In this document: positions 5,302 to 13,339 of the stretch, piece after piece | Layout of the letters: each line of letters starts with the position of its first letter | How positions within the stretch are numbered: position 1 is the first letter of the stretch | From: Olleya sediminilitoris | GTDB lineage: Bacteria; Bacteroidota; Bacteroidia; Flavobacteriales; Flavobacteriaceae | Length of the DNA stretch: 38,193 bases | NCBI RefSeq assembly: GCF_016785945.1 | Contig: NZ_JAEMEF010000019.1 | Span: 1-38,193, forward strand | Direction of reading: 5' to 3' | The notes under the pieces: model-generated | What the model saw: the letters and a program-made list of their open reading frames with translations, nothing else | Databases searched by the model: none | Told to the model about the DNA's origin: nothing | Translations under genes and position numbers: made by a program

Positions 5302-5309
5302 TTTAAAAG

Positions 5310-5338
5310 TTAACCTTCTTAATTTTTAAACATTAATA
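5310..5338 (+). promoter_or_regulatory. Predicted ECF sigma promoter (site E)
   Basis: TTAACCTTC at 5310-5318, 13 bases, then ATTAATA at 5332-5338. It differs from the three perfect copies (10239, 12239, 12704) by one base in the -35 half and keeps the exact spacing and -10 half. Transcription would start near 5345, leaving a leader of about 97 bases before the ATG at 5442. Confidence 0.65.
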
Positions 5339-5441
5339 ATAAAAATGCAGTAAATCAACCAACTGTAATTTATTAATAATTAGTTGTGTAGGTTATGCAT
5401 TATCTATAATTTTAAACTAAATACATATAAATTAATTACTT

Positions 5442-6035
5442 ATGACACTAAAACAAACTTTTTTAATCGCTATATGTTTGCTTTTTATTACAAGCTCATG
5501 CGAAGAAAACGATGATAATACAGAACCAACCAATAGTATTACACTTACAGAAACCAATTATTTTTATGAAAACGACGCTTACGTATATGCTTTAAATATT
5601 GAAAGAGATCAATTAATTGAATCTATAGAAAATGGCACTTCTAATGATCCAGATGCAGACCAAACTAGAATTGAAACCATAAATTTAATTATTGAAACTA
5701 CTACAACCAGTATTGGTTTTGGTTTACCTCCATTACCAATCCCTCCAGCTCCTTGTCTTTGTTGGGATATATGGAACGAACAAAAATTTTTAATTGCTGA
5801 TAATACTGTTTTTGCTATTGAAGCAACTATAATTTCTGAAAATGAAGAACTAATTTACAATGCTAACACTTTAGGAGAAAGTCTTAATATTAATGGTTTT
5901 GATATTCCTGCTAAAGCCTATTCTTTTTCAGTAGAGCAAAACGCATATTCTGGTCCAGCTACTTTAAGTATTACTAAAATAAACACGGAAGGAGAACAAC
6001 CAATCACTTATTCTGTACCTATTTTTATTGAATAA
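5442..6035 (+). CDS. Small acidic lipoprotein of unknown function
   Basis: 197 aa. Lipoprotein signal with lipobox ...FITSSC (Cys20), followed at once by acidic residues EENDDN. An acidic run after the lipid cysteine resembles the lipoprotein export signals of Bacteroidota, so surface exposure is possible. The middle holds a proline-rich stretch with two cysteines (PPLPIPPAPCLCW, about 97-109). No domain was recognised. It is preceded by a copy of the shared ECF-type promoter at 5310-5338. A strong hairpin lies between it and the CHAT gene 71 bases downstream. It is probably first in a two-gene unit under the sigma factor encoded at 9593-10162; that is inference. Confidence 0.7.
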   Translation: MTLKQTFLIAICLLFITSSCEENDDNTEPTNSITLTETNYFYENDAYVYALNIERDQLIESIENGTSNDPDADQTRIETINLIIETTTTSIGFGLPPLPIPPAPCLCWDIWNEQKFLIADNTVFAIEATIISENEELIYNANTLGESLNINGFDIPAKAYSFSVEQNAYSGPATLSITKINTEGEQPITYSVPIFIE

Positions 6036-6064
6036 ATATATCTTTAAAATAAAAACTTTAAATT

Positions 6065-6093
6065 TAAGCCTAACTATATGATAGTTAGGCTTA
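6065..6093 (+). terminator. Strong hairpin between lipoprotein and CHAT gene
   Basis: A perfect 13-bp stem (6065-6077 with 6081-6093) with a 3-base loop, ending 13 bases before the CHAT start. Only four T follow after ATG, so it may be a partial terminator (attenuator), an mRNA-stabilising 3' end for the lipoprotein message, or a structure acting on CHAT translation. Confidence 0.6.
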
Positions 6094-6106
6094 ATGTTTT
6101 AATGAA

Positions 6107-8872
6107 ATGATAGTATTCAAAAAAAAAATAACTTTTTTAAATTTAATTATTTGTCAATTTATATTTATTTCGGCTTATAGTCAAATTCAGACTAATACAG
6201 CTGAATCTTATTTTAATAGTCTATACAAATTCATGTATACTAATCAAGATTCAACCCAACTATATAAACAAAAACTATTAGATCTTTCTGTTAATCAAAA
6301 TAATGTAGAACAACTTATATACACCTACATAGTTAGTAATAAATCGACATTGATTTTTAATAACATGGACGAACTAGAAAATAATCTTAAAAAATTAGAT
6401 AGTTTATTTCCTGTAGCAGAAAAAGAGATTGAAGTTTTTAATGACTTTCATGAAGTTAAAAACTCATATTTTCATGATAAAGCTGTATTCAATATAAAAA
6501 CTTACAATTATAAAAAAGCAAAAATAAATCTTGATAAAATTTTTAAGTATGCTAAAAAAACTCCTGATTCTTTATTAACAGATTCGCATAGAGGTCTTAT
6601 AGATGTGTCTTACAAAGTAATGGCTAAAATGTATAGTAACAATAAAGAATATGAATTAGCAATACAGTATTTAGATAAAAGTATCCGATTTATTAATTCA
6701 AAAAACACAGACCACAAAGAGTACTTGATTAATGGTGTTAATAGGCAAAAAGGCGATATTTATAAAAAATTAAAAGACTATAAAAAAGCGACTTATTTTA
6801 CAACTAAAGCCTTAAACTATACGCTTAAGCATAATAAATCTAATACTAATCAACTAATTAATGAAGTTTATAATACCGTTGACAACTACCTAGCACTAAA
6901 ACAATACGATAGTGCTTCGTATTATTTAGAGCAAATCAAACCACTAGCAGACACCAATATACCTTATGGCTTTTTATATTATAAATCTAGAGCAAAACTT
7001 AATGAAGCTTTAAATAATACCGAGTCTATTCAGGAAGATTATGATAAAGCATTAGAACTATTAAACAGAAAATGGAACGGTTTAAAACAAGTTGAAATTG
7101 CTGAAACACTACAATCATACTCTAATTTTTTGATAAGCAATAACCAATACAATCAAGCTTTAAAGCAAAATGCTGCTGCAATAACTCATGTTTCGGGTAA
7201 AGACGTTGTAAATTCTTCCATAAATCAAATTACCTTATTTAAATTATTACAACAAAAAGCATTAATAGCAATGCGTCAAAATCAATCTGATTCAGTAATT
7301 AAAAACACATATCAAGCGACACGATTATTAGATACATTAAAGCCTCATTTTAAAAATAAAACAGACAAACTATTACTAATAGAAAATGCCTATTCTGTTT
7401 TTGAAAACGGTCTACAAGCCACTTACAACAATTATAAATCCAATAAAAAGAATGCTGTAAATGATGCCTTTTTCTTTTTAGAGAAAAGCAAAAGCACACT
7501 TCTACTTGAAGCATTATTGAGTGTTAAAGCAGAAAAATTTGGCGCTATCCCAAATGAGATAATAATTAAAGAAGACATTTATAAAAACACCATTACTAAC
7601 TTAGAAAAACAATTAAACCAAAAACAAAACGACGTCTTTAAAGACCAATTATTTGAGGTTAAATCAAATTATCGCACATTTTTGGACACTTTAGAAAACA
7701 AATACAAAGACTATTATAACTTAAAATACAATGCAGAAGTTACTACTATTAAAACGGTTCAAAAAGAATTAAAACCTAGTACAGCTATGTTATCATTTTT
7801 TTACGGAAATGATGCTATTTATGGAGTAATCCTAGATCAAGACAATACTTACTTTGAAAAAATAGAATTAAACCAAGCCTTAGAACAACAATTGAAACTT
7901 TTTCAAAAACAAATTAGCAACCCTAAAACCGACATTTTATCATTAAAAAACAATGCTGCTAAACTTTACACTATTTTACTTGCTCCTTTTTTAGATAAAG
8001 TTAACCAACCTAATCTTATAATACTAACAGATGGATTACTAAACTATATTCCGTTTGAAAGCTTAGTAAAAGACAACCATTACTTAGTTGAAAATTATGC
8101 TGTAAGCTACATAAACTCGGCAACACTTTTAAAAGAATTAGAAAATAAAAAGAGTAGAAAAAACAATTTGTTAGCTTTTGCACCAGAGTTTGAAGGTGAT
8201 ATTTATAATAGTGTTAGAAGTAAAAGTTTACAACCTTTACCACATAGTAAAGTCGAAATACAAAACATAAACCAGTATTACAAAGGAAACCTTTTAATAA
8301 ATAAAGACGCTAGTCTAGAAAGTTTTAAAACCAATGCTTCAGATTATGGTATTATACATTTAGCGACACATGCTATTTTTAATGATACAAATCCAGAATA
8401 TTCTTATTTAGCTTTTGGAAACGAAGCGTCTGATTTACTCTATACAGCAGACTTATACAACCTAAACCTTAATGCCAATCTAGTTACACTTTCTGCTTGT
8501 GAAAGCGGAATAGGAAACCTTAAACGTGGCGAAGGGTTATTAAGTTTAGCCAGAGGGTTTTACTTTAGTGGTGCACAAAGTATATCTAGCACACTATGGA
8601 AAATTAACGATGCTTCTTCTGCAACATTAATGTCAGATTTTTATAAAAACCTTTCTAAAGGACAATCTAAAGACTTAGCCTTACAACAAGCTAAGCTTAA
8701 TTTTATGAAACAAAATAAAGACAATGCATTATCACATCCATATTATTGGTCTGCATTTATAATATCCGGAAATACTGAGCCTTTAACCTCTACACACTAT
8801 TGGTTATGGGTTTTAGCAGGAATATTGCTATTAGTCACATTAGGTATACTATTAAAAAAGTATAAAAATTAA
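6107..8872 (+). CDS. Exported TPR-CHAT domain protein (caspase-like peptidase)
   Basis: 921 aa. A Sec signal peptide ends at ...ISAYSQ (about residue 26). Helical TPR-like repeats fill about 40-470, with clear units such as KEYELAIQYLDKSIRF and KDYKKATYFTTKALNY. A coiled-coil-like stretch spans about 480-560. The CHAT domain covers about 570-885. The probable catalytic dyad is His755 (HLATHA) and Cys798 (LSACESG), followed by the conserved GEGLLSLARGF and A..SSTLWKI motifs. One C-terminal helix (about 899-916) ends in KKYKN, so the peptidase domain should face the periplasm. It converges on the anti-sigma candidate and shares its TTAA stop. Clan CD peptidase activity is family knowledge; the target is unknown. 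Confidence 0.9.
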   Translation: MIVFKKKITFLNLIICQFIFISAYSQIQTNTAESYFNSLYKFMYTNQDSTQLYKQKLLDLSVNQNNVEQLIYTYIVSNKSTLIFNNMDELENNLKKLDSLFPVAEKEIEVFNDFHEVKNSYFHDKAVFNIKTYNYKKAKINLDKIFKYAKKTPDSLLTDSHRGLIDVSYKVMAKMYSNNKEYELAIQYLDKSIRFINSKNTDHKEYLINGVNRQKGDIYKKLKDYKKATYFTTKALNYTLKHNKSNTNQLINEVYNTVDNYLALKQYDSASYYLEQIKPLADTNIPYGFLYYKSRAKLNEALNNTESIQEDYDKALELLNRKWNGLKQVEIAETLQSYSNFLISNNQYNQALKQNAAAITHVSGKDVVNSSINQITLFKLLQQKALIAMRQNQSDSVIKNTYQATRLLDTLKPHFKNKTDKLLLIENAYSVFENGLQATYNNYKSNKKNAVNDAFFFLEKSKSTLLLEALLSVKAEKFGAIPNEIIIKEDIYKNTITNLEKQLNQKQNDVFKDQLFEVKSNYRTFLDTLENKYKDYYNLKYNAEVTTIKTVQKELKPSTAMLSFFYGNDAIYGVILDQDNTYFEKIELNQALEQQLKLFQKQISNPKTDILSLKNNAAKLYTILLAPFLDKVNQPNLIILTDGLLNYIPFESLVKDNHYLVENYAVSYINSATLLKELENKKSRKNNLLAFAPEFEGDIYNSVRSKSLQPLPHSKVEIQNINQYYKGNLLINKDASLESFKTNASDYGIIHLATHAIFNDTNPEYSYLAFGNEASDLLYTADLYNLNLNANLVTLSACESGIGNLKRGEGLLSLARGFYFSGAQSISSTLWKINDASSATLMSDFYKNLSKGQSKDLALQQAKLNFMKQNKDNALSHPYYWSAFIISGNTEPLTSTHYWLWVLAGILLLVTLGILLKKYKN

Positions 8873-9591
8873 TCTAGACTATCAAGTAACGTTTTAGCTT
8901 CCTTCTTTTTATAATTATAATTTGCAATTAAAGTTTCTAAATATTTAGTAGCTTCGGTTTTATTTTGCTGTTTCAAATTAATTAATGCTAAATACCAATT
9001 AGCTTCCGCTTTAAATTGACTCTCGTTGATAGTTGTTTCATGTAGAAACAAATCTTTAGCTTTTTCTAATTCATCCAAACCTAAATACGATTGTGCTTTA
9101 TAAAAATTAAAATAAGGTTGCTGGTGTTGTACTTCATTAAATTTTTGAATTGCTAAAGTATAGTCTTCGGTTTCATAAGCGACAAAAGCATCTCGTTCAA
9201 GACTGCTTGTATCTTCTCCTCTTGTGATAGTATAAACTGTATTTGGATAATTTTTATAATTGGTAGTATATAAATCATTATAATTTACTCCAAAAAAAGC
9301 ATCGTAACCAAACCAACCAGCTGCTATAAAAAAGACAATAGATGCTGCAATACGCCAATTAAACCAGGATTTGTTACTATGTTGTACAGCACTTCTGTTA
9401 TTTTCAAAACCTTGTAATTTAGATTTTAAAATCTCACTTTGTTCTGCTTTTATGACTTGCTTAATATTATTTTCAAAATTAAATTGAGCTTTAAATTCAG
9501 AGTCCGTTTTTAATAAATTACTAAACATCTGTTCTTGCTCTGGAGTCAAAGTATTAGAAAAATATAGATATAAAAGTTGTTCTTTATCCAT
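8869..9591 (-). CDS. Membrane TPR protein, candidate anti-sigma factor
   Basis: 240 aa. A cytoplasmic N-terminal part (1-78) begins with MDKEQLLYLYFSNTLTPEQE, typical of small anti-sigma-like domains next to ECF genes in Bacteroidota. One transmembrane segment lies at about 79-100 (IAASIVFFIAAGWFGY). A periplasmic TPR-like region covers about 131-235 (YTLAIQKFNEVQHQQPYFNFYKAQSYL). It starts one base after the sigma gene stop, so the two are translationally coupled. Its stop codon uses the same TTAA as the convergent CHAT gene. The anti-sigma role is inferred from topology and position; no ZAS-type zinc motif is present. Confidence 0.75.
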   Translation of the reverse strand: MDKEQLLYLYFSNTLTPEQEQMFSNLLKTDSEFKAQFNFENNIKQVIKAEQSEILKSKLQGFENNRSAVQHSNKSWFNWRIAASIVFFIAAGWFGYDAFFGVNYNDLYTTNYKNYPNTVYTITRGEDTSSLERDAFVAYETEDYTLAIQKFNEVQHQQPYFNFYKAQSYLGLDELEKAKDLFLHETTINESQFKAEANWYLALINLKQQNKTEATKYLETLIANYNYKKKEAKTLLDSLD

Positions 9592-9592
9592 G

Positions 9593-10162
9593 TTATTTGG
9601 GATTGCTATTAATACGTTCTTTTAGGGTTTTAAGACATCTAGACTTAGCACTTTTTATAACATTTTCGCTATTGTAGTTACTATGGTTTAAAATGTCTTT
9701 AATGGTAAATCCTCTGTAATAAAATAAGTTTAGCAATTCTTGACATTGCTTACCTAAATCTTTAAAATGCTGTTTTAGTAGCTTTTGTTCTTGGGTTAAA
9801 TCTTCATTTTCAACATCTAAAGTACTTACTAAATCATCAGAATCCTTAACCAAGGATAAACCAAAATTAGAACTTACTTTTTTGTTGTTTTTTTTCATCT
9901 TATCAAAGATTAAGTATTTACCAATACTAAATAAATAGGTAGAAATACTGCTTGTAAAACTTTCAATTTTACCGCTCATTACATTGTTATAAAACACGAT
10001 ATAAGCATCTTGGTAGATATCTATAATGTCATCGGTTTCCAAATTATAACGTCTAGCAAAATTTATAAACTTATCTCTATTGTCTTCATACACCTGTTGA
10101 AGCGCTTGATCTGAGCCTTGCTTTAAACTTTGAAGCGATATTTCTTCTTGGTTATTTGCCAT
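9593..10162 (-). CDS. ECF-type RNA polymerase sigma factor
   Basis: 189 aa, the normal ECF size. Region 2 lies at about 25-92, with DDIIDIYQDAYIVFYNNV and STYLFSIGKYLIFDKMKK for core binding and -10 recognition. A variable linker runs from about 93 to 125, and region 4 at about 127-183 (CQELLNLFYYRGFTIKDI, then a recognition helix to NVIKSAKSRCLKTL). A stop codon TAA sits in frame directly before the ATG and no later start keeps region 2, so 10162 is the start. It is divergent from the operon at 10291 and coupled to the anti-sigma candidate. Likely targets are the TTAACCTTT-N13-ATTAATA sites in this window. Confidence 0.93.
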   Translation of the reverse strand: MANNQEEISLQSLKQGSDQALQQVYEDNRDKFINFARRYNLETDDIIDIYQDAYIVFYNNVMSGKIESFTSSISTYLFSIGKYLIFDKMKKNNKKVSSNFGLSLVKDSDDLVSTLDVENEDLTQEQKLLKQHFKDLGKQCQELLNLFYYRGFTIKDILNHSNYNSENVIKSAKSRCLKTLKERINSNPK

Positions 10163-10190
10163 TTAATAATTGGTTTGGAGAAAAGGTTAA
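10163..10190 (-). promoter_or_regulatory. ECF -35 motif upstream of the sigma gene (site D)
   Basis: On the minus strand TTAACCTTT runs 10190-10182, preceded by ATG exactly as at 10239, 12239 and 12704. An ATTATTA element follows after 11 bases rather than ATTAATA after 13. It abuts the sigma ATG, so any transcript would be leaderless or start inside the gene. Autoregulation is plausible, but the fit is poorer than at the other sites. Confidence 0.4.
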
Positions 10191-10238
10191 CATGTAAAAG
10201 TAAAATTAACTTTTTTTTAAAATAAAAAGCATCTAATG

Positions 10239-10267
10239 TTAACCTTTTTAAAATCAAAATATTAATA
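10239..10267 (+). promoter_or_regulatory. Predicted ECF sigma promoter (site A)
   Basis: TTAACCTTT at 10239-10247, 13 bases, ATTAATA at 10261-10267. Transcription would begin near 10274, about 17 bases before the ATG at 10291. The AAC core in the -35 half is typical of ECF promoters. It is divergent from site D, 48 bases away. Confidence 0.7.
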
Positions 10268-10290
10268 AGCGTATTTATAAACTTAAAAAA

Positions 10291-10641
10291 ATGAAAACGC
10301 TTCAATTATCAATTATTGCACTATTAACATTTACTATTAATAGTCAAGCACAAAACAATCCAACTAAAACCAAAGATTCGACTACTATTAATTCTAATAA
10401 CTTCTTGGATAAAGGTACCGAAACATTGACCAGCATTTTTGGCGAAAACCTTGATGGCAACTCTACTGGAAAAACTTTAGGATATATAGAGTTATTAGAA
10501 AAATCTGACTTACCAGAAAAACAAAAAATAGAGCTTAAAAATCAATATTACTTATTAGCTAAAGATTTAACTCAAAAACAAAAAGACTCATTAGGTCAAG
10601 CTATTGGAAAACAAATAAAGGAAGCTAAAAAAGACGAATAA
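10291..10641 (+). CDS. Small secreted protein of unknown function
   Basis: 116 aa. Signal peptide ends at ...TINSQAQ (about residue 21). The mature protein is polar and Lys/Thr rich. A helical C-terminal half contains two similar segments, SDLPEKQKIELKNQYYLL and LTQKQKDSLGQAI. No family was recognised. It is first in a tight three-gene operon (gaps of 22 and 26 bases) behind ECF-type promoter site A and divergent from the sigma gene. This position suggests it is a main target of that sigma factor. Confidence 0.7.
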   Translation: MKTLQLSIIALLTFTINSQAQNNPTKTKDSTTINSNNFLDKGTETLTSIFGENLDGNSTGKTLGYIELLEKSDLPEKQKIELKNQYYLLAKDLTQKQKDSLGQAIGKQIKEAKKDE

Positions 10642-10663
10642 TTAATCCATTAAAAATAAAACA

Positions 10664-11503
10664 ATGAAACTTTTAAAACCATTACTAATAATATTAATAT
10701 GCTGTTTTACAACACAAAGCAATGCACAAATCTGGAAAAAACTAGCTAAAAAAGCTGAGAAAGCTGCAGAAAAAACTTTAGAAAAGAAAGTTGAACAAAA
10801 AACAGAACGTGAAACTGAAAAAGCTTTCGATTCTACATTTAATAATAGTAGTGATTCTAAAACTGCTAATAACAAAAATAATTCACCTTTTGGAACTAGC
10901 AAATCTGCCCAAACACCTTCAAGCACATACACCTTTTCTCATAAATATGTTATGCAAATAGAGGATGGAAAACGCACAACAAACTTAGTCTACTATTTAA
11001 CCAATACTGGAAATTATTTCGGGACTAGTATTCCTGATAAAAAAGGTAAAAATAACATGATAAGTGTTATGGATATTGACAAAAAATCCATGTACATGTT
11101 TATGGATAATAAAGATGACAAAACACTTATGTCAATGCGTTTAAATTTTGAAGACACTAACAACGACGCTATTGAGCAATCCGATATTAGCATAATTGCT
11201 ACCGGAAACACAAAAACCATATTAGGTTATAACTGTGAAGCTTTTAAAGTAAAAGGACAAGACGTGCAAGGTACGGTTTGGGTTACTCAAAACGCAGGAA
11301 TAACCTTTGTAAAATCCATGTATAATATAAAAGGAAAAAAAAGCAATAATCAATCTTGGATGAAAATGATAGATGGACTAACTCTAGAAATGGATATGGT
11401 GGACACCACTAAACGCAAACCTAAATCCATTAAAATGACCTGTATTGCTCTAGATAAAACCACTAAAACTATAACGTCATCTGACTATAAAAAACTAATG
11501 TAA
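10664..11503 (+). CDS. Secreted DUF4412-like protein
   Basis: 279 aa. Signal peptide ends at ...TTQSNAQ (about residue 23). A strongly charged helical segment follows at about 24-60 (KKLAKKAEKAAEKTLEKKVE), probably a coiled coil. A beta-rich domain from about 90 contains KTILGYNCEAFKVKG and VWVTQNAGI, the pattern of DUF4412 proteins of Bacteroidota. The molecular role of that family is not known. It is the second gene of the operon behind promoter site A, 22 bases after the previous stop. Confidence 0.7.
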   Translation: MKLLKPLLIILICCFTTQSNAQIWKKLAKKAEKAAEKTLEKKVEQKTERETEKAFDSTFNNSSDSKTANNKNNSPFGTSKSAQTPSSTYTFSHKYVMQIEDGKRTTNLVYYLTNTGNYFGTSIPDKKGKNNMISVMDIDKKSMYMFMDNKDDKTLMSMRLNFEDTNNDAIEQSDISIIATGNTKTILGYNCEAFKVKGQDVQGTVWVTQNAGITFVKSMYNIKGKKSNNQSWMKMIDGLTLEMDMVDTTKRKPKSIKMTCIALDKTTKTITSSDYKKLM

Positions 11504-11529
11504 ACTATTAATTATAAACCAATAACAAA

Positions 11530-12141
11530 ATGAACATTTTTAAAACACTAAGTATTTTACCATTAATTATTTTAAGCTTAAACTGTCAAGCTCAAGACAG
11601 TTTTCAAGCTAAAGAAAAAGGCACATTTTTAACTAACGGAAGCATATTAGTTTACAATACTACCCGAAAAATTAACGATAACAAAGCCACAGCTTTTACA
11701 ACTAATATTACACCAAAAGCAGGTTATTTTATAGCAGACAACCTTGCTATAGGTTTAGAGCTTTCCATTACTACTAATAAAGAAAAACAAGAAGACGAAT
11801 TTTTTGGAGATATCGAAACCACTACCAATGGGTTTGCAGTACTTCCTTTTGCTAGATATTATTTAGATAATGGTCTTTTTGCCGAAGCTGTTGTTGGCTT
11901 TGGATCTCAAAAAACATCTACTGAAAGTGATTTTAGCGAATTAGGAACTTTAGAAACCAAAGCGTCTTCCTTTGGATTTAGAGTTGGTGTTGGTTATTCT
12001 TTTTTCTTAGGAGATCATGTCGCTATAGAACCTTCTATAAATTATTCATGGGAAGATATAAATCCAGAAGATGCACCTTCAGAATACAAAGAAAGCTTAT
12101 CATCCATATTTTTGGGTATTGGGTTGTCAGCCTATTTTTAA
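11530..12141 (+). CDS. Outer-membrane beta-barrel protein (OmpA/OmpW-like size)
   Basis: 203 aa. Signal peptide ends at ...LNCQAQ (about residue 22). The mature part alternates hydrophobic and polar residues with repeated glycines and aromatics (AGYFIADNLAIGLEL, LPFARYYLDNGLFAEAVVGFG, FGFRVGVGYSFFLGDHVAIE). It ends in ...GIGLSAYF with a terminal Phe, as expected for an eight-stranded outer-membrane barrel. It is third in the operon behind promoter site A and is followed by a clear terminator at 12197-12228. Partner and substrate are unknown. Confidence 0.78.
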   Translation: MNIFKTLSILPLIILSLNCQAQDSFQAKEKGTFLTNGSILVYNTTRKINDNKATAFTTNITPKAGYFIADNLAIGLELSITTNKEKQEDEFFGDIETTTNGFAVLPFARYYLDNGLFAEAVVGFGSQKTSTESDFSELGTLETKASSFGFRVGVGYSFFLGDHVAIEPSINYSWEDINPEDAPSEYKESLSSIFLGIGLSAYF

Positions 12142-12196
12142 TCAATAAATATCCCTTAGACTGATTGATAGATTTTTCATTATTTAAGTTAGTTTT

Positions 12197-12228
12197 AAAA
12201 AGCCGAAACAAATGTTTCGGCTTTTTTT
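12197..12228 (+). terminator. Intrinsic terminator of the 10291-12141 operon
   Basis: GCCGAAACA (12202-12210) pairs perfectly with TGTTTCGGC (12213-12221), followed by seven T. Confidence 0.9.
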
Positions 12229-12238
12229 ATTTTACATG

Positions 12239-12267
12239 TTAACCTTTACATTGTCAAACCATTAATA
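12239..12267 (+). promoter_or_regulatory. Predicted ECF sigma promoter (site B)
   Basis: TTAACCTTT at 12239-12247, 13 bases, ATTAATA at 12261-12267. It lies just after the preceding terminator and 30 bases before the ATG at 12298, so this gene is an isolated unit with its own copy of the motif. Confidence 0.7.
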
Positions 12268-12297
12268 AGTGTTATTAATCTAAAAAAACAATTAATT

Positions 12298-12642
12298 ATG
12301 GCAACAAAACAATTTACAGTTAACACTTACAAAATGGCATTAGGTTACCAAAGTTCTGCAACATGGAATGGTAAAAAAATTAAAATTCAAGGCTACATTA
12401 CTTGTTATGGTAAAGATCACAGATTTATTATATACTTCTTACATGACTCAAGTCCTGTACCTGATCCAACCTATATTCCTGCTAACAAAGTAGGAGCCAT
12501 TTTTTTACCATTTAAAGACATGCCAATATATGTAGATATGGTTAGAAACGAAAAACCCGTTTATGCTTACTTAAATTCTACTAATCCAGAATGGAATAGC
12601 ATAAAAACCTCTAACGAGCCTGTTGGCGAGGAAGAAAGCTAG
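12298..12642 (+). CDS. 114-aa protein of unknown function, ECF-controlled
   Basis: No signal peptide or membrane segment is seen, unlike its neighbours, so it is probably cytoplasmic or leaves by another route. The sequence is beta-rich with many aromatics (SSATWNGKKIKIQGYITCYG, HRFIIYFLHDSS, VGAIFLPFKDMPIYVDM) and ends in an acidic tail (GEEES). It resembles no family I recognise. It has its own promoter (site B) and terminator (12663-12693), forming a monocistron. The protein's compact beta pattern would fit a small binding domain, but that is a guess. Confidence 0.65.
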   Translation: MATKQFTVNTYKMALGYQSSATWNGKKIKIQGYITCYGKDHRFIIYFLHDSSPVPDPTYIPANKVGAIFLPFKDMPIYVDMVRNEKPVYAYLNSTNPEWNSIKTSNEPVGEEES

Positions 12643-12662
12643 AATTAGTCGCTTTAGTTTTT

Positions 12663-12693
12663 AAAAACCGAAAATTTTTTTTCGGTTTTTTTT
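12663..12693 (+). terminator. Intrinsic terminator of the 12298 gene
   Basis: AACCGAAAA pairs with TTTTCGGTT (stem from about 12666 to 12687), followed by further T. It is AT-rich apart from the CCG/CGG core. Confidence 0.8.
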
Positions 12694-12703
12694 ATCACTT
12701 ATG

Positions 12704-12732
12704 TTAACCTTTCTGTTTTAGATCTATTAATA
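12704..12732 (+). promoter_or_regulatory. Predicted ECF sigma promoter (site C)
   Basis: TTAACCTTT at 12704-12712, 13 bases, ATTAATA at 12726-12732, with the shared ATG triplet just before. The transcript would begin near 12739, about 30 bases before the ATG at 12770. Confidence 0.7.
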
Positions 12733-12769: not shown

Positions 12770-13339
12770 ATGAAACATTTATTATTGAAATCAAAATTTA
12801 TCCTTGTAGCAATTATAATTGCTTTTAACTTTTCATGTTCAACAGAAGATGGTGCTGAAGGTCCTGCAGGTGCAGACGGAATTGATGGAGTTGATGGTAC
12901 AGATGGTGTGGACGGAAATGCTAATGTACAAACAATTACTATTGATGCTTCCACTTTTTCAGGTAACTACACCTCTATATCAGTACCAGAAATAACACAA
13001 GAAGTCCTAGACAATGATGTTATACTTACCTATTTAACAGATAGTCCTAATTATTGGGTTACAATACCATGTCCTTATGATAGTGTTGCATTTAACTTTT
13101 CTGTACACGTAATACACTATTTAGAAGGTGTCGATCTAGATTATAATGATGCATCAGGATCATTTTACAATATTTCTGCAGGAGACCTAACATCTTTAAA
13201 AGTTGTAATTATAAAATCTTCATCTGACGCTAGATTTGCAAACAACAATAAACAGCAAACTTATAATCAACTAAGTCAAGCCGGAGTTGACATTACCAAC
13301 TATTACGAAGTCTGTGATTATTATGGTATCAAATACTAA
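12770..13339 (+). CDS. Lipoprotein with collagen-like Gly-X-Y stretch
   Basis: 189 aa. A lipoprotein signal ends at ...FNFSC (Cys23). A run of about seven Gly-X-Y triplets follows at about 28-50 (GAEGPAGADGIDGVDG and on), rich in Asp in the Y position. After that comes a compact beta-rich domain to residue 189 with no recognised family. Collagen-like runs directly after the lipid anchor are known in Bacteroidota surface lipoproteins, where they probably act as stalks. It is a monocistron with ECF promoter site C upstream and a terminator at 13362-13389. Confidence 0.75.
   Translation: MKHLLLKSKFILVAIIIAFNFSCSTEDGAEGPAGADGIDGVDGTDGVDGNANVQTITIDASTFSGNYTSISVPEITQEVLDNDVILTYLTDSPNYWVTIPCPYDSVAFNFSVHVIHYLEGVDLDYNDASGSFYNISAGDLTSLKVVIIKSSSDARFANNNKQQTYNQLSQAGVDITNYYEVCDYYGIKY

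Follow-up and report, generated by a model that had tools for sequence, protein, structure and literature searches.

A flavobacterial ECF-type promoter motif that touches the start codon of its sigma gene, beside an anti-sigma candidate and a TPR-CHAT protein

ECF regulation with a membrane anti-sigma factor is already known, and so is a link between CHAT proteins and anti-sigma factors, from Craspase (in the available part of PMC10028731) and from DdvA in the PDB. Like systems of the sigmaE-RseA type, the locus described here has an ECF sigma gene, an adjacent gene for a membrane protein with one helix, and -35 and -10 elements at ECF spacing, but it differs from them in having a TPR part beyond the membrane helix, a TPR-CHAT neighbour and a sigma site that touches the sigma start codon. 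Craspase (Csx29 TPR-CHAT, Csx30 and CASP-sigma of type III-E CRISPR) likewise has a TPR-CHAT protease-like protein, and was reported to combine it with a sigma inhibitor and an ECF sigma whose promoter motifs lie within the same locus (PMC10028731, available part). In contrast to Craspase, both the CHAT protein and the anti-sigma candidate studied here look membrane-bound, with main domains that, judging from signal-like and hydrophobic segments, would lie outside the cytoplasm. No Cas protein, including a Cas7-11 partner, was found among 20 proteins scanned with Pfam in the window (the whole stretch of 38,193 nucleotides from Olleya sediminilitoris that was analysed), and PADLOC gave 0 matches for the sigma factor, the anti-sigma candidate and the CHAT protein.

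In the DdvS/DdvA system of Myxococcus, DdvA is a transmembrane anti-sigma factor whose PDB chain is named as a CHAT domain-containing protein. There CHAT and anti-sigma parts are joined in one chain, whereas here they are encoded by two genes; PddvS was furthermore reported to need DdvS (PMC4374960, available part), which also differs from what we propose below. ECF54 factors have CHAT-domain proteins in their gene neighbourhood but are described, in the part of the account available, without an anti-sigma factor (PMC8999054); the present group, in which an anti-sigma candidate directly follows the sigma gene in 79 of 80 named loci, is set apart from ECF54 by this gene context. The SM6 promoters of Flavobacterium psychrophilum are also flavobacterial and ECF-type (PMC9723704, available part), with the difference that the -10 element here is CATWAA, and EcfO of Bacteroides fragilis is another Bacteroidetes ECF factor with a published motif (PMC7366714, available part).

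The cluster in the window comprises the following features.

5309 to 5338, plus strand: ECF-type site 1, GTTAACCTTC...ATTAATA, 133 nt before a lipoprotein-like gene
5442 to 6035, plus strand: lipoprotein-like protein, behind site 1 and directly upstream of the CHAT gene
6107 to 8872, plus strand: TPR-CHAT protease-like protein with a signal-peptide-like N-terminus, a His755/Cys798 dyad and a C-terminal hydrophobic helix
8869 to 9591, minus strand: candidate anti-sigma factor, modelled with a three-helix N-terminal part, a membrane helix (77-100) and a TPR part (131-239)
9593 to 10162, minus strand: ECF sigma factor of 189 aa, recognition helix SENVIKSAKSRCLK at residues 165-178
10236 to 10267, plus strand: ECF-type site 2, ahead of the run of genes for a small secreted protein, a DUF4412 protein and a beta-barrel protein
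10291 to 10641, plus strand: small secreted-looking protein of 116 aa, behind site 2
10664 to 11503, plus strand: DUF4412 protein (PF14371), in the same gene run
11530 to 12141, plus strand: outer membrane beta-barrel protein (PF13505), in the same gene run
12236 to 12267, plus strand: ECF-type site 3, ahead of the gene for a 114-aa protein
12298 to 12642, plus strand: 114-aa protein with no Pfam match, behind site 3
12701 to 12732, plus strand: ECF-type site 4, ahead of the gene for a lipoprotein with GxxGxx repeats
12770 to 13339, plus strand: lipoprotein-like protein with GxxGxx repeats, behind site 4

The 114-aa protein has no signal peptide by the crude rule applied below, unlike most other targets, and a similar sequence (MATKQFTVN...) stands behind the motif in the relatives L140 and L141. 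Perfect 14-nt hairpin arms at 6064-6094, past the end of the lipoprotein gene and ahead of CHAT, are perhaps a terminator or attenuator; an inverted-repeat search of the window gave nothing helpful beyond them.

Promoters that are cognate to ECF factors have an AAC-type -35 element spaced about 16 nt from the -10 element, a geometry represented by the sigmaW promoter TGAAAC-N16-CGTA. An earlier note on this DNA had read four sites of the form TTAACCTT[T/C]-N13-ATTAATA as such a promoter, shared by a local regulon. All four were recovered (5310, 10239, 12239 and 12704, each on the plus strand with a spacer of 13), as was the ATG that precedes the three "perfect" ones (10236, 12236 and 12701), and their spacers in the window are indeed unrelated in sequence, as are the downstream genes. 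The genome-wide scan that the note had proposed returned these four exact matches only in 3.42 Mb, all in the cluster, and 0 for the reversed pattern. The sites do lie upstream of genes, the G of GTTAAC being 133, 53, 60 and 67 nt from the next start codon, so that a long leader is expected at site 1. The ECF sigma gene said to lie in the middle of the cluster is there: its product scores 51.6 bits against TIGR02937 (sigma70-ECF; cut-off 42.9), 22.5 against Pfam Sigma70_r2, slightly below the cut-off of 24, and 39.8 against NCBIfam Sig70_bacteroi1 (TIGR02985), for which the cut-off is 126.4. With up to three mismatches allowed, the motif was found 21 times in the host genome and its reversal 16 times, about equally, so that within a single genome near-exact matches alone are informative. 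One such match, which the earlier note missed, lies in trans with a single mismatch (G000:C12:311393-311424 of the host genome), 59 bases before a gene for a 622-aa protein.

A matrix was built from 14 syntenic loci (the window and L061-L073), using 49 of 58 intergenic non-sigma candidate sites and leaving out nine; as sites were chosen for containing GTTAACC, its invariance in the matrix is by selection. The consensus of the 49 sites is TGTTAACCTTT, 13 free bases, CATWAA, a purine/G position and A-rich positions at 33-35. Judged by sequence, GTTAAC-N16-CATWAA is an ECF-type -35/-10 geometry, with an AAC-type -35 element at a spacing of about 16 nt, conserved and, as described below, covarying with the sigma factor. 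In 80 named loci, including those of Lacinutrix, Bizionia, Maribacter, Zobellia, Arenibacter and others, the matrix found 239 upstream sites, of which 16 at sigma genes were removed; the remaining 223, spread over 72 of the loci, stand no more than 250 nt ahead of a gene, at a median of 56 nt from the start, with 185 at 44-70 nt. The same scan gave three sites inside genes, 13 intergenic sites that lack a gene start in the next 250 nt, and one match of the reversed matrix. Calling ORFs from ATG only shortened GTG-started sigmas (L067, L069 and L072) and gave a few falsely short distances (e.g. 15, 17 and 28), which were spotted by reading. Transcription starting near base 34-36 would give these targets a leader of about 20-25 nt, close to the median of 24 nt given for F. 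psychrophilum (PMC9723704, available part).

The targets appear to be mostly lipoproteins or secreted proteins: a lipoprotein/signal rule held for 217 of 223, as against 883 of 1306 ORFs, a modest enrichment by a crude rule, and GxxGxx repeats were found in 61 of 223 as against 94 of 1306. This content would point to the cell surface. In many loci (e.g. L107, L127, L147 and L166) seven or eight separate motif-headed genes lie near the sigma gene, mostly lipoprotein-like and some with GxxGxx repeats. A site ahead of the gene just upstream of CHAT, as in the window, was present in only 10 of 74 loci. Outside the cluster, 24 scattered sites were examined in 23 stretches; 12 have a gene 43-83 nt downstream, in most cases one that looks exported, nine stand at other distances, two have no downstream gene that was found, and one, a two-mismatch site of the host genome, lies inside a gene. 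None of the three scattered sites from genomes without a sigma match stands 43-83 nt before a gene start. Ten genes behind scattered sites were scanned with Pfam: matches above cut-off include Kelch, FGE-sulfatase and LGFP, together with CarboxypepD_reg/transthyretin-like matches in the 622-aa protein of the host genome, while C1q, collagen and Por-secretion matches fell below cut-off and three of the ten had no match.

The motif occurs together with the sigma factor. Within the genus, a sigma orthologue (81-100% identity) is found in three of ten genomes (G000, G004 and G008), the same three that hold exact motif matches; the other seven have sigma paralogues of about 30% identity or none. 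In the family, 41 of 199 genomes have a sigma match at E<=1e-15. The pattern TGTTAACCTTT-N12-14-ATTAA is present in all 13 genomes that have a close orthologue of 62-100% identity (38 matches), in 4 of the 28 whose sigma match is weaker (eight matches) and in 3 of the 158 that have no sigma match (three matches); the reversed pattern has 18 matches across the 199 genomes, two of them within the 13. These counts come from related sequences and are not independent, and the named loci overlap with the family genomes as samples. A sequence-only model, R1 (an alignment of 63 of 70 sampled sites, drawn from 222), was uninformative, with matches at E<=1 in all ten genus genomes, including those without the sigma. 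Four of its matches in sigma-less genomes were read: L231 and L234 are the leadered own promoter of a paralogous ECF factor, and L233 and L240 hold the same paralogue-promoter sequence on the other strand. This paralogue (L231 in G003 and L234 in G001, with similar ones at L233 in G002 and L240 in G007) has CATTAA as its -10 and GGAGACC as its -35, with its start at 44.

A fifth site, also missed by the earlier note, stands ahead of the sigma gene itself, its spacer being one base longer than that of the other four, and a candidate promoter of the primary sigma factor lies upstream of it.

10163 to 10191, minus strand: fifth site, GTTAAC-N17-TATTAA, ahead of the sigma gene, with a -10 that abuts the start codon at 10162
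10201 to 10208, minus strand: TAATTTTA, candidate -7 box of P1, a putative primary-sigma promoter, with a predicted start near 10196 and a leader of about 34 nt

The same contact was found in 74 of the 80 named loci (71 distinct sequences), in which the G of the best match lies 27-30 nt before the sigma start; the best matrix match was sought from -150 to +20 and its position was not imposed. Five of the 74 sites score low (12 or less), most of them with a 17-nt spacer. When the other six loci were read, four (L152, L159, L165 and L171) showed GTTAAC-N17-CATTA(A) immediately ahead of the ATG; no such site was read ahead of the sigma gene in L174 and L176. The start codon at the 74 contact loci is ATG in 48 and GTG in 26. 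An in-frame stop stands directly before it in 41, and no other start codon is listed in 51; alternative in-frame starts lie upstream in six and downstream, at scattered positions, in 21, so that the true sigma start is not certain everywhere. Targets are placed differently, the 49 matrix sites having a median of 59 nt to the start and none at 27-30. Contact at a non-sigma gene was seen in 1 of 223 targets (L105) and in 2 of 24 scattered sites (L179 and L188, at 27 and 29); for L105 and L179, at 27-29 nt before the called start, later Met codons exist. An A at -3 is present at 37% of the 74 sigma starts; its share is 81% among the 223 targets and 55% among 953 ORFs. The figures look as if the -10 box overrode the Kozak-like start context (PMC6847099, available part) at the sigma gene. 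The GTG starts in 26 of 74 loci and the rare A at -3 look as if the promoter limits initiation of sigma translation.

The contact reaches beyond close relatives to a certain depth only. Of 25 further sigma loci from a class search, seven have a recognisable start-touching site (L202, L221 and L226 in the same family; L204, L205, L223 and L224 in other families), with sigmas of 30-40% identity and a weak score at L226. In L214-L219 and L225 (28-36% identity) the site lies 37-47 nt before the start, some scores being weak; L220, a KYKC sigma, is an ambiguous case with a TTG at 28 and a GTG at 31; and no clear site was found at the remaining class-search loci. As the GGAGACC paralogue of the genus is leadered as well, start contact seems, from these comparisons, typical of this sigma branch and not of distant relatives.

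Upstream of the sigma-gene site a stretch resembling AAAAAA...TTAAATTAGC is conserved. The pattern TAnnTT[TA][GA], starting 10-22 nt upstream of GTTAAC, occurs at 63 of 71 distinct sigma sites as against 5 of 49 targets, and resembles the -7 box TAHHTTTG of F. johnsoniae (PMC6847099, available part), T-6 or G-5 of the box being often changed at sigma genes and the window 8-mer lacking the final G. Alternatively, this stretch may serve the ECF site as an UP element. Since the -10 touches the sigma start codon, a transcript from the sigma's own site would lack that codon: the A-rich region at bases 33-35 implies a beginning in codons 2-3 (in the window at about 10154-10156, inside codon 3), and an RNA begun there, at the usual distance, could not encode full-length sigma. 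The sigma factor itself would then probably be made from P1. Active sigma at its own site would block P1, and the resulting transcript would at most serve the downstream anti-sigma gene. We give about even chances to this self-limiting loop, in which sigma blocks P1 and yields at most an anti-sigma transcript.

Many ECF factors switch themselves on, and the own site could also be read as positive autoregulation, with a leaderless mRNA that begins at the ATG or immediately ahead of it. A site does stand ahead of the sigma gene in nearly all loci, flavobacteria do have leaderless mRNAs (5.5% of those in F. psychrophilum; PMC9723704, available part), and in Myxococcus xanthus PddvS depends on DdvS as cited above (PMC4374960). 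Autoregulation of this kind would, however, need transcription to start 0-1 nt past the -10, whereas the targets are A-rich at 33-35 with gene starts mostly at 44-70; the paralogue carries its own site 44 nt before its start, and a separate upstream element is conserved at the sigma genes. We therefore regard it as unlikely. To a similar extent we doubt that the site over the start codon is a pure roadblock, by which sigma would repress P1 without any productive transcript. It does overlap the predicted P1 start region, and the gap between the sigma and anti-sigma genes is small or negative (-46 to +10), so that their translation may be coupled, in which case little anti-sigma may be made from a transcript on which sigma is not translated; against this, the -35, the -10 and the bases that follow are kept much as they are at targets.

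The motif and the sigma factor are also tied through the -35 element. Each sigma's own site was located by the -10, the AC of the -35, the leading G and the T-run, with -35 bases 2-4 left free; 116 of 142 sigma homologues had an own site above the score used and 26 were dropped. Sigmas with a KSRC helix have GTT[A/T]AC at their own site (103 of 103), those with KYKC have GG[A/T][G/T]AC (12 of 12) and a single KYQC sigma has GTTTAC. Within the KSRC group, E, D or Q at residue 166 goes with A at -35 base 4 (96/96), and K or T goes with T (7/7). By parsimony on a tree of 105 tips, base 4 changed five times and the residue-166 class six times, with GTTTAC at L163, at L084, at L078/L221/L226 and at L203/L205, with weak support at some nodes. 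The targets show this covariation in part: at the seven loci with K or T at 166, T stands at base 4 in 9 of 13 non-sigma sites, the exceptions being L163 (K166; three GTTAAC against one GTTTAC) and one GTTAAC in L247. Base 4 is A in 229 of 231 sites of L098-L162, and in all 35 sites with a gene start nearby in 27 second-tier loci (T in 0/35), sigma sites being included in both counts; the second-tier loci were taken as an E166 group with helices not each checked. Residue 166 is thus likely, on this covariation, a specificity residue for -35 base 4.

It is very improbable that the motif is instead an operator for an unrelated DNA-binding protein. GTTAAC is palindromic and TTAA often occurs in both blocks, which a dimer could use, but the second block varies as CATAAA or CACTAA, breaking the symmetry, the blocks and spacing fit ECF geometry, changes in the -35 go along with changes in the sigma recognition helix, and the paralogous ECF factor has the same -10 with a different -35. 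Still less credible are copies of a duplicated promoter or mobile element spread by recombination, which the clustered location and several near-identical spacers in some loci (e.g. L067) might recall, since spacers, flanks and downstream genes in the window are unlike and it is the motif rather than the spacer that is conserved across genera. We are highly confident, on sequence grounds, that the sites are promoters for the ECF sigma encoded at 9593-10162 (minus strand) and drive a local, partly scattered regulon. The shared ECF-type promoter of the earlier note is thereby upheld by its co-occurrence with the sigma, its intergenic placement at a fixed distance and the covariation of -35 and recognition helix, except that its -10 core is CATWAA and not ATTAATA; the local regulon is supported as well, and also includes the sigma-gene site and at least one gene in trans. 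The sigma holoenzyme would read GTTAACCTTT-N13-CATWAA and transcribe mostly lipoprotein and secreted-protein genes. Taken overall, with its feedback and protease parts graded separately, this explanation is in our view very probably the right one.

What restrains and releases the sigma may be read from its neighbours. A CHAT gene is nearby in 79 of the 80 loci, convergent and adjacent in 74, and L119, one without it, is a 3.2-kb contig. In the model of the anti-sigma candidate (pLDDT 89), three helices at the N-terminus are followed by a membrane-type helix and a TPR domain; the matches listed for it in the PDB are weak, concern the TPR part only and are uninformative on sigma binding. From position, fold and topology, this membrane TPR protein is likely to be the anti-sigma factor. 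The CHAT model (pLDDT 85) has a TPR-CHAT fold with the His/Cys dyad and matches Craspase TPR-CHAT, separase and DdvA, with low full-length TM-scores, the best PDB match being Craspase TPR-CHAT (7y8t_B, E 1.8e-13). Both His and Cys are kept in 78 of 78 aligned proteins (77 loci and the window, shorter ones left out). That this probably periplasmic protein cleaves or senses the anti-sigma factor and so releases sigma is a suggestion to which we give slightly less than an even chance.

Two further ECF modules were seen in the host genome, at G000:C22:1-14000 (L254) and G000:C22:312500-327136 (L255), where an ECF gene is followed by a membrane protein gene, TPR-like by reading, and a TPR-CHAT gene lies no more than a few kb away. 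Such a pair stands near each of the three CHAT genes that were found in the genome. No clear site could be assigned, by reading, upstream of the L254 and L255 modules.

Drawn together, an ECF promoter that starts inside sigma codons 2-3, shuts the primary promoter and makes anti-sigma mRNA, wired to a periplasmic caspase-like TPR-CHAT protease as a non-CRISPR counterpart of Craspase logic, is a picture that we put forward tentatively. Neither a flavobacterial ECF motif GTTAACC nor a sigma promoter on its own start codon turned up among the papers listed in searches of the open-licence literature, which omits most subscription papers and gives no proof of absence; the apparent novelty lies in a promoter placed over the sigma start codon together with a separate, probably periplasmic TPR-CHAT partner. 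TPR-CHAT proteins would then be possible partners of membrane anti-sigma factors outside CRISPR. The start-codon arrangement, if true, would be an unusual self-limiting circuit, and its being kept across many genera suggests a switch that limits itself. Now that the promoter of this flavobacterial ECF family is defined, and a residue that likely sets its specificity has been picked out, the family's regulons may become readable in many genomes.
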